Shown in pieces: positions 13,445 through 16,021 of a stretch of 35,863 nucleotides of DNA. This DNA comes from Pirellulales bacterium (GTDB taxonomy: Bacteria; Planctomycetota; Planctomycetia; Pirellulales; JADZDJ01): positions 1-35,863 of the forward strand of contig DATJYL010000146.1 of NCBI GenBank assembly GCA_035499655.1, read 5' to 3'. The position numbers and the translations under genes are program-made. The notes beneath the pieces were generated by a model that saw only the letters and a list, made by a program, of their open reading frames with translations, searched no databases and was not told where the DNA came from. Each line of letters starts with the position of its first letter. The stretch's first letter is position 1.

Positions 13445-13585
13445 GGTCATGAGTCAGTTTGAAATGTAGAGGTCCCGGCGCGCCGGGATCCTCAGCCGCT
13501 GAAGCACCATTCGCTGAAAAACGGCTGGGGACCCCGGCGCGCCGGGGTCGCTACATCCGTAATCGATCAAACTGACCCACTACCC
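13445..13585. mobile_element. Palindromic MITE-like element
   Basis: About 140 bp that folds back on itself. The left arm has GTCAGTTTGA (13453-13462), ATGTAG and a GGCGCGCC-centred GC block up to CAGCCG (13498). The right arm mirrors it, with CGGCTG from 13522, the GGCGCGCC block, CTACAT (13551-13556) and TCAAACTGAC (13567-13576), plus about 10 extra bases. Both ends start near GGT. It is flanked by GGAGCGAT at 13437-13444 and again at 13586-13593, as expected for an 8-bp target duplication. No coding capacity. Whether it moves by the neighbouring IS1-type transposase is inference. Confidence 0.7.
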
Positions 13586-13602
13586 GGAGCGATGGTAGTG
13601 TC

Positions 13603-14643
13603 TTAAGAGTGTGTGGGTGATTTTAAGACGGCCTCAAATAACTCGTCAAAACTCCAAATATGGTCGGTGATTCCGGCCATCATCGCAGCCGTGGGGCGCT
13701 TCTGACCGCTCTTGCCCGGTTTCCGAGTCCGCCAGCAGTAATTGTAGTAAGCCGCGAACATTGCGAAAGCGGCCTCTAGGTTTTCCAGTTTCTTGGAGAA
13801 GCACAGCGTTAGCCGATTGAGCCGCTTCATAAACGTGCGCTGGGTGCCATTGAGCCGCTCAACATGCGAAGTGGTTATTGAGCGGGCATTGCGGTTGTCT
13901 ATATTGCGAATGCCCGTCCGCTTGGTTCCAACCATTTCGGACGGCGTGTAGATCATGTTGGCGTTTTTATATTCCTTGATTATCGTGCCGTACTTCACGT
14001 AAGGGCCAAAGGCTAGATCAACGGCTTCGGGGTAGGCAGCGAATCCATCGGTCGATAGCTGGCAAACGATAGGATACTGGCCCAGCTTAAACGCATGGGC
14101 ATCGGAAGCGTGGGGCGCGGGGAAAACTAACCGGCCAGCAACGTCCATCATAAACCGCCGGGCATTGTCGGCACTACGCTTGCCGATCAAAAAACTCGGC
14201 ATCAATTTGGTGGTTTTGTCGATGCAAGTCCAGAGATAAATGTCACCTTGATCGTGGCATTCTTCCCGCTCCGTCATGGTGAGCCGCGATTGCTTCTTGG
14301 CAACGTAGGTCCACTGTTCATCGAATTGCAAGTGGCCCAGTGTTAGGCCGCGCATTTGTTGGTCAAGAAACCGCTGGCAGGCAGTGCCGAAGTGAACGAT
14401 CAATTTGCAAATCGTATTGCGGTTCATCCCGGTGGTGCGCTCTGCGGCGCGAATTGACATCCCTTCCACCAAGAGACGGCAAACCATTTTGGCGTCGTCA
14501 ACCGAAACTCGCATATCACCCAAAAGTTTCGGCTGTAGGTCGGTCCAGGTTTTTCCGCAGAGAATGCAGCGGTGCCGCTGGTTGCCGTGTCGATCTTTGC
14601 CGAACTTTTGTGTTTGTTCGTGCTGGCAAGTAATTTGTATCAT
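13603..14643 (-). CDS. IS1-family transposase (single-ORF form)
   Basis: A 346-aa transposase corresponding to a fused InsA/InsB. The N-terminus has a zinc-ribbon motif (Cys6, His8, Cys26, Cys29) and a helix-turn-helix (MSIRAAERTTGMNRNTICK, about 62-80). The catalytic domain shows FDEQWTYV at 107-114, Asp142 in WTCIDKTTKLM, Asp199 in STDGFAAY and Glu262 in HVERLN, followed by RLTLCFSKKLEN, the region that reads LSFSKSVE in IS1. No frameshift is needed. Its last codons lie inside the left terminal repeat. It uses several ATA isoleucine codons, including codon 2 and those for Ile221, Ile248 and Ile256. Confidence 0.93.
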   Translation of the reverse strand: MIQITCQHEQTQKFGKDRHGNQRHRCILCGKTWTDLQPKLLGDMRVSVDDAKMVCRLLVEGMSIRAAERTTGMNRNTICKLIVHFGTACQRFLDQQMRGLTLGHLQFDEQWTYVAKKQSRLTMTEREECHDQGDIYLWTCIDKTTKLMPSFLIGKRSADNARRFMMDVAGRLVFPAPHASDAHAFKLGQYPIVCQLSTDGFAAYPEAVDLAFGPYVKYGTIIKEYKNANMIYTPSEMVGTKRTGIRNIDNRNARSITTSHVERLNGTQRTFMKRLNRLTLCFSKKLENLEAAFAMFAAYYNYCWRTRKPGKSGQKRPTAAMMAGITDHIWSFDELFEAVLKSPTHS

Positions 14644-14771
14644 TGCAAAGTTTCCCGTTGTTAGGGCGACTTTGCGTGGTAGAATGGACTTGTCTAGGGA
14701 CCATTCGGCGCTAGTCGCCGGATTGTTCTTGCCCCGGCCGGATTCGCGTCTGACCGGGGTTTAATTATGTC

Positions 14772-14849
14772 ACTTATTATGGCCATAGAAAGTATCGGTG
14801 TCAATGGATTTGTGGGGTTGACTTGCAAATTATTTTGGCCATAATAAGT
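14772..14849 (+). promoter_or_regulatory. Promoter and inverted-repeat operator of the ribbon-helix-helix gene
   Basis: A perfect 14-bp inverted repeat (ACTTATTATGGCCA at 14772-14785 and TGGCCATAATAAGT at 14836-14849) flanks a candidate promoter, TTGACT (14818-14823), 16 bp, CATAAT (14840-14845). The right half-site covers the -10 box. Transcription would start about at the ATG (14853), giving a nearly leaderless mRNA. The arrangement suits autorepression by the encoded ribbon-helix-helix protein (inference). Confidence 0.55.
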
Positions 14850-14852
14850 CGC

Positions 14853-15053
14853 ATGATTGGAAGGCCACCAAAGAAACAAGATCAGTTACAGACCAACATA
14901 TTGAAGGTCTGCTTGACCGAAGCCGAGCGATCAGAACTTGACAAAGCGGGCGGTGGCAAAACGTCCGTTTGGGCGAGGGAGACGCTGCTACGCGCTGCAA
15001 GACGAAAAAACGGCAGGGGTGGGGATCGAACCCACGCCGGGGTACACGATTGA
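14853..15053 (+). CDS. Small ribbon-helix-helix-like DNA-binding protein, IS cargo
   Basis: A 66-aa basic protein starting MIGRPPKKQDQLQTNILKV, followed by LTEAERSELDKA and SVWARETLLRAAR. This GRPPK...LTxxE...SxWARExLL pattern is typical of ribbon-helix-helix proteins of plasmids and mobile elements. Start ATG 14853 was chosen over 14823 because the pattern begins there and the promoter overlaps the upstream region. No Shine-Dalgarno is visible, which fits a leaderless message. The last 14 or so codons read antisense into the tRNA gene (GRGGDRTHAGVHD is tRNA-derived sequence), so the natural C-terminus has been replaced or extended. Confidence 0.65.
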   Translation: MIGRPPKKQDQLQTNILKVCLTEAERSELDKAGGGKTSVWARETLLRAARRKNGRGGDRTHAGVHD

Positions 15054-15112
15054 GGTCATGCCCCGGACTGCCGCTTATAAGGCGGCTGCATTGACCGCTC
15101 TGCCACCCTGCC
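15011..15112 (-). tRNA. Unusual type II tRNA, serine-like body, anticodon UAU, on the IS
   Basis: A complete cloverleaf can be drawn: acceptor GGCAGGG/CCCTGCC with discriminator G73; 3-bp D stem (GCA/TGC) with GG in the loop; anticodon stem GCCGC/GCGGC with loop CTTATAA (U33, anticodon UAU); T stem GTGGG/CCCAC with loop TTCGATC. The variable region is 34 nt: a CCGGGG/CCCCGG stem plus CATGA/TCGTG above a 2-nt bulge, loop CCTCAA. This is far longer than the usual 16-21 nt of bacterial tRNA-Ser. The D arm and G73 resemble tRNA-Ser, but the anticodon would read AUA (Ile). CCA is not encoded; TTTTTT follows the 3' end. It lies 60 bp downstream of the 266-aa gene on the same strand. Confidence 0.8.
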
Positions 15113-15172
15113 GGCATCGCCATTCTGCTGCCGGCGGGGTGGGACAGTCACGCGGTTGGGCCAGAGACAATC

Positions 15173-15973
15173 TTACGGTTGTCTTTCGCGTTTGAAGTAA
15201 CGCATGAGAGTTTTGAAGCTAACACCATATTTTGGTTGAAGTTCTTTGCAGGCTGACTGAAGCGGCATGCGTTTAATTAACTTCTGAATATCGTGAATGG
15301 CATCGCGTTGTTGCTTATCTGTCAGCAGAACTCGCGTTTTACCGGCCGCAACGGCGCGCTGTTGTAACTTCTTAGCCTTTTTCACCAATCCATCAAATGG
15401 TCGCACTCTGATGCGCTCCATAATCTGTCCGAGGGTCACTGCCATTACGGCAAGGTGCTGGTGATCGGCAGATGCCGCTACCAGGTTTCTGACAGCAAAG
15501 GCGGCAGCTAAGAATTCAATCAGGTCACGAACATTATCTGGAATATCAGCGTGAATTCTAAATGGCTTAGGCCCTTCGCCTAAATCCAAATATATGGCGT
15601 TTTTCGCCGACTTTGCTAGGCTTAAATGACAACGTACTGCGTTCCGTGCGTGTTCTTCAAGCAGATCGAGCTTCAGAATCGCATTCAACAATCCGCCAGA
15701 TTGCTGCTCAAATGAGCCGACCTCCTCGTCTGTTAGAGAATCTGCGCGTTCTCGTTTATAGATTCCAGCATCGGCGCATTCTTCTGCTGTCGCGTGAAAA
15801 GCAAAATAATCAACCATTTTTGCATACCAATCCGCCAAGCTGACCGACCAATGGACATTGGGTATGCTCAACGCCCAAAGGCCAGCCTGTGCGGGGATCA
15901 GCCGCGAGCTTGGAACGGAAGGCATTTTAGCGAATAAATCGCGTAATGCCAAAACTGGCAGAAAAAACAACAT
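15173..15973 (-). CDS. Unrecognised 266-aa protein, IS cargo
   Basis: I do not recognise this protein. It is predominantly helical, with no signal peptide; residues 1-16 are hydrophobic (MLFFLPVLALRDLFAK). The middle contains LEEHARNAVRCHLSLAKSAKNAIYLDLGEG and a hydrophobic stretch LIEFLAAAFAVRNLVAA. The C-terminal 60 residues are basic and may form a helix-turn-helix (MPLQSACKELQPKYGVSFKTLMRYFKRER). The ATG at 15973 lies 3 bp from the right terminal repeat, so transcription must start in or beyond the IS end; Met17 is an alternative start. The tRNA follows on the same strand and could be co-transcribed. A link to the tRNA is inference from position. Confidence 0.6.
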   Translation of the reverse strand: MLFFLPVLALRDLFAKMPSVPSSRLIPAQAGLWALSIPNVHWSVSLADWYAKMVDYFAFHATAEECADAGIYKRERADSLTDEEVGSFEQQSGGLLNAILKLDLLEEHARNAVRCHLSLAKSAKNAIYLDLGEGPKPFRIHADIPDNVRDLIEFLAAAFAVRNLVAASADHQHLAVMAVTLGQIMERIRVRPFDGLVKKAKKLQQRAVAAGKTRVLLTDKQQRDAIHDIQKLIKRMPLQSACKELQPKYGVSFKTLMRYFKRERQP

Positions 15974-16021
15974 TGAAAATCACCCACACACTCTTAAGAC
16001 ACTACCGGAGCGATGGACCTG

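Follow-up and report, generated by a model that had tools for sequence, protein, structure and literature searches.

Allo-tRNAs are serine isoacceptors with non-serine anticodons; UAU is the commonest of these, and the distribution in bacteria is patchy (Mukai et al., 2017, reviewed in PMC7609411). Allo-tRNAs with non-serine anticodons put serine into E. coli proteins, and the tested UAU allo-tRNA-like group, whose members had broken stems, was not usable for E. coli translation (PMC7609411). A connection with transposable elements had been suspected from a single UAU pseudogene that overlaps a transposon-related ORF (PMC7609411). A second natural mismatch of body and anticodon, tRNA-ProX of Streptomyces and Kitasatospora, causes mistranslation (PMC10365949, PMC11415595). 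Here we describe a serine-type tRNA with a UAU anticodon that is carried by a complete transposon in a 35,863-nucleotide stretch of Pirellulales DNA (the window), and we compare it with similar tRNAs on other mobile elements.

The tRNA gene occupies positions 15011–15112 on the minus strand. A reading made from the letters alone (the sequence-only reading) had given exactly these coordinates, and the Rfam tRNA family RF00005 matches 15112–15011 with 59.2 bits (E = 1.7e-10). The cut-off of the family is 29 bits, and the score is not pseudogene-like. This is the sole RNA family match in the window; ARAGORN, run on the window, did not report the tRNA. The fully paired cloverleaf that had been proposed was borne out by counting (acceptor 7/7, anticodon 5/5 and T stem 5/5, a 7/5 arrangement), and the D stem has 3 bp. 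The anticodon loop is CUUAUAA, and no alternative anticodon frame fits. The variable region spans 34 nt, and folding gives 5 + 6 stacked pairs around a 2-nt bulge, with one further isolated pair, in agreement with the 11-bp bulged stem described earlier. The predicted folding energy is −49.6 kcal/mol (z = −3.4 against shuffles). CCA is not encoded at the 3′ end, and TTTTTT follows directly. A pattern for serine-type UAU tRNAs matched the window once and none of 100 shuffles (0/100).

The proposed combination of a serine-type body with UAU was also upheld. Covariance models gave Ser 58.0, Leu 39.7 and Ile 30.2 bits, with Ser the best of the three; the models are small and made mainly from the host's own tRNAs, and the Ser model gives host Tyr tRNAs 58–65 bits, so the score alone cannot split Ser from Tyr. 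Serine identity resides in G1-C72, G2-C71, G30-C40, G73 and the long arm, and the anticodon is irrelevant (PMC9976931); all of these elements that were checked are found in the UAU tRNA. All ordinary tRNAs are encoded in the host genome (4.54 Mb, 97% complete), among them Ser GCU, UGA, CGA and GGA, Ile GAU and Ile2 CAU, and so is TilS, which most of 15 other host genomes also have. The lysidine-based reading of AUA that had been assumed is thus in place. The UAU tRNA thus supplements this set and replaces nothing in it; its role as a substitute for Ile2/TilS was rejected. AUA makes up 8/8803 codons (about 0.1%) in the host genes of the window versus 6 in about 613 codons in the transposon's own genes. 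CarB, the gene chosen to test the meaning of AUA, has no AUA codon.

The sequence-only reading had not noted that the tRNA is cargo. It lies inside a complete IS1-type transposon of 2413 bp (13594–16006) with perfect 31-nt terminal inverted repeats (TIRs) and an 8-bp target-site duplication (TSD). The left repeat (GGTAGTGTCTTAAGAGTGTGTGGGTGATTTT, 13594–13624, plus strand) is 100% complementary to the right arm (15976–16006, minus strand), and the duplication GGAGCGAT is found on the plus strand at 13586–13593 and 16007–16014. In a block-shuffled control, the combination of TIR and duplication occurred in 0/108. The transposase (13603–14643, minus strand) is encoded as a single ORF of 346 aa and matches DDE_Tnp_IS1 (PF03400) with 25.5 bits (1.8e-5), slightly above the cut-off of 24.1; its homologues have related TIRs. 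The IS1-type DDE transposase, the TIRs and the short target duplication are those of the IS1 family, whereas the two frames with a programmed frameshift of classic IS1 are replaced by one 346-aa frame. IS1 relatives with a single frame exist. Elsewhere, at the end of a contig, the host genome has a second copy of the transposase gene (87% DNA identity). A short way to the left of the transposon is a GC-rich palindromic repeat (13464–13556) with many related copies genome-wide.

The element has further passengers. ORF266 (266 aa, 15173–15973, minus strand) is co-oriented with the tRNA and lies upstream of it, with no match in Pfam, PADLOC or plasmid searches and no link to a known family; the tRNA follows 60 nt behind it and is in turn followed by the T6 run. 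On the plus strand, an ORF of 66 aa (14853–15053), judged by eye to be ribbon-helix-helix-like, is a candidate regulator whose 3′ end is antisense to the tRNA. It has no Pfam match of its own; a look-alike that adjoins the phage tRNA at locus L070 has a weak NikA-like Pfam score. Inverted repeats with TGGCCATAATAA (14763–14858), a possible operator, lie between divergent promoter-like sites (minus 14804–14776, plus 14818–14845). The transposon contains no synthetase gene. Four codons of the transposase, codon 2 among them, are AUA. The aligned positions of these codons are Ile/Val-like (e.g., RSITTSHVERLN), and serine there would be no help to the transposase; the idea that AUA means serine in this protein was not supported. 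No link between AUA enrichment and the tRNA was seen, as IS1-type homologues without this tRNA are alike in this respect.

The distribution of the tRNA does not fit vertical inheritance, which was rejected: it was found in 1/392 genomes searched of the phylum, and two relatives of the same family gave no match to its sequence. None of 23 loci with homologues of the window-type transposase has such a tRNA; it is therefore no constant component of this IS group. Related IS1-type elements in other genomes of the phylum have TIRs that start GGTAGTGTC or GGGTAGTGTC and carry different passengers; two of them (L204 and L212) have clear 8-bp duplications. In a sister genome of the same genus (G001), the interval from the sigma-factor gene to metK is without the transposon. 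Homology with the window restarts at 16017, 2 bp beyond the TSD, and the left side is not alignable. Upstream of metK in this interval, G001 has a Ser/Sec-like stretch that is degenerate and has a UAU loop (L359:2571-2657). At 25.9 bits it scores under the family cut-off, and it may be a coincidence or a remnant.

A search for the serine body with UAU returned 23 stretches in about 85,000 genomes and a further 6 in viral contigs. Nearly all are genuine class-II tRNAs, spread over unrelated phyla; one (L046) was set aside as a chance match and another (L066) reads as Val. A complete acceptor with G73, G1-C72 and G2-C71 is present in 13 matches, including the window tRNA. The remainder, mostly in prophage-like or flavobacterial CBASS settings, have mismatched acceptor ends. 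Four flavobacterial tRNAs, at L049, L051, L053 and L055, in which 1-72 and 2-71 are unpaired, precede an S24-type repressor and CBASS-like genes. Two tRNAs with an intact acceptor sit in type I CRISPR loci, one between Cas3 and Csx17 (L061:2729-2816) and one 92 nt before Cas3 (L063:7804-7892). On a viral contig (L072:9206-9414), a leucine-type body with the serine anticodon GGA lies directly beside a serine-type UAU body, a tandem of two identity-swapped tRNAs. The viral scan for other anticodons, whose counts are "at least" values, gave among the matches listed class-II tRNAs with the asparagine anticodon GUU (L090, L102, L107, L111 and L125), several with G73. Two dense arrays of extra low-scoring tRNA genes, about 30 at G000:C240:734-3688 (L001) and 7 at G000:C185:62649-64130 (L002), represent most isotypes (a class I Ile(UAU) is among them) and look like a plasmid or phage tRNA array.

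Seven repeat-bounded elements of IS1 or IS1595 type carry tRNAs in which body and anticodon are mismatched (window, L045, L044, L054, L256, L259 and L356), and an 8-bp duplication is present in four (window, L045, L256 and L259). The anticodon of the mobile mismatched tRNAs is mostly UAU, and also UUA, UGG and CAA. L045 has the window-like design of IS1-type transposase, TIRs and 8-bp TSD. In L044 and L054 the TIRs accompany a transposase of IS1595 type, and L054 has a serine-body UUA (ochre) tRNA next to its UAU tRNA. IS1595 transposase homologues of L054 were surveyed in three phyla with no anticodon specified (119 matches, about 116 inspected). The survey yielded two UAU tRNAs that look 8/4, in L256 (TIRs and 8-bp duplication) and L356 (TIRs); a serine body with UGG in L259 (TIRs and 8-bp duplication); a CAA tRNA in L299; and a leucine body with UGC in L262. 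TIRs were sought around the tRNAs of L262, L302 and L330 and were not found. Class I tRNAs with U73 adjoin the IS1595 transposases at L302:2640-2715, L330:1914-1988 and L256:1711-1785, the first two with a Cys-like body; they read as UGC (Ala), with irregular anticodon arms that make the frame uncertain.

L044 and L299 belong to one transposon family (87–93% identical), and the same slot is occupied by a canonical UAU tRNA in L044 and an allo-like CAA tRNA in L299. Nothing else points as strongly to a maintained tRNA cassette as this near-identical slot and flank. In both elements the tRNA lies between 25–26-nt perfect inverted repeats within the transposon (L044:2120-2327 and L299:984-1190), a cassette-in-cassette layout. 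The comparison places the window tRNA among recurrent transposon-borne mismatched tRNAs, a group that overlaps the allo-tRNAs; neither this recurrence nor the resemblance had been remarked on in the sequence-only reading.

We favor, at a probability of about 0.6, the reading that the window tRNA is a mobile serine-accepting missense tRNA, the passenger of an IS1-type transposon, that puts serine at AUA. The fold, isotype, transposon ends and recurrence can be read from the sequence; expression, charging, serine at AUA and any benefit are what we infer. The tRNA would be transcribed from the minus strand, alone or together with the upstream ORF266; the transcript would end at the T-run, and CCA would then be added. 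The host SerRS, ignoring the anticodon, would charge it with serine. It would compete with the lysidine-modified tRNA-Ile2, with the result that some AUA codons are read as Ser in place of Ile. Because AUA is so rare in the host, the cost there should be small, and mistranslation would fall on foreign or mobile genes richer in AUA. The element might gain by action against AUA-rich invaders, by control of the element itself, or by a stress or heterogeneity effect of the kind reported for tRNA-ProX (PMC10365949, PMC11415595). Three fates had been offered at the outset: serine at AUA stands as the likeliest, charging by another synthetase is disfavored by G73, and a tRNA mimic stays among the readings weighed here.

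The alternative that survives best, although we consider it unlikely, is that the molecule is a structural or regulatory RNA and not a decoder. Through its fold and processing sites it would delimit the passenger transcript at the 3′ end, as its position behind ORF266 and ahead of the T6 run would allow, or act as a decoy for an enzyme that acts on tRNA, such as an anticodon nuclease, or for a tRNA-sequestering toxin aimed at AUA decoding. The CreT toxin sequesters tRNA-Ile(CAU) by means of AUA codons (PMC8501985), related loci adjoin defence genes (Cas3/Csx17, CBASS and HicAB-like), and in several relatives of prophage type 1-72 and 2-71 do not pair, which should weaken charging. Yet the window tRNA retains every canonical tRNA and serine identity feature, and the variation among UAU, UUA, UGG and CAA is unexpected for the decoy of a single nuclease. 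It is somewhat less probable still that the tRNA is a neutral hitch-hiker, a tRNA-Ser captured by the transposon whose anticodon drifted with no selected role. The assorted passengers of IS1-type relatives and the single occurrence in the phylum would fit such capture, but UAU is found repeatedly, in several unrelated transposons and phyla and twice in the survey that did not specify it, and the stems are intact in 13 pattern matches. Phage-tRNA-like supply of the element's own AUA codons in an AUA-poor host, suggested by their excess over host genes and by the AUA at transposase codon 2, is very improbable, since it needs isoleucine charging, which G73 and the long arm disfavor, and since tRNA-free IS1-type homologues use AUA equally (15% of Ile codons).

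The serine-accepting missense reading can be extended, more tentatively and with the balance of probability against it, to a general scheme. IS1/IS1595-type transposons may maintain a slot for identity-swapped tRNAs, with an anticodon that shifts in the course of time. This would amount to mobile programmed mistranslation (Ser at AUA, UAA, CCA and UUG) and would explain the scattered allo-tRNAs. The data suggest that tRNAs with the capacity to misread the code are spread by mobile elements. Bacterial tRNAs that misread were already known, and transposon cargo supplies a concrete vehicle for their scattered occurrence. Whether genetic-code ambiguity is moved between species by mobile elements, and what these gain from it, is now a testable question. 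Phage protection through amino-acid-swapping recoding is pursued in the laboratory, and transposon-borne mismatched tRNAs may be its natural counterpart.

Compared with described systems, the window tRNA shares with allo-tRNAs the serine identity elements, the long variable arm and a non-serine anticodon. It differs in its canonical 7/5 cloverleaf, as allo-tRNAs have a 12-bp branch arranged as 8/4 or 9/3 (the form that the IS1595-borne tRNAs of L256 and L356 appear to have), in its intact stems, unlike those of the tested UAU group, and in its location within a complete transposon bounded by TIRs and a TSD. It is thus most likely allo-tRNA-like in its working and not an allo-tRNA by structure. 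tRNA-ProX is likewise a natural bacterial mismatch, but it has a class I proline body and often lies beside a dedicated ProRSx, whereas the window tRNA has a serine body, is transposon-borne and has no synthetase nearby. tRNA-Ile3(UAU) of Bifidobacterium, Mycoplasma and others shares the anticodon but is an isoleucine tRNA that replaces the lysidine-dependent Ile2 (PMC8450103); the window tRNA is Ser-type and class II with G73, in a host that has Ile2 and TilS. Finally, the window element resembles IS1/IS1595-family elements with passenger genes in transposase type, TIRs, 8-bp TSD and passenger ORFs, and differs in having a tRNA as passenger, for which we found no description in the literature searched. 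New here is direct evidence that such cargo sits in complete transposons, with two transposase types and in several phyla, and that the anticodon in one slot has been switched.
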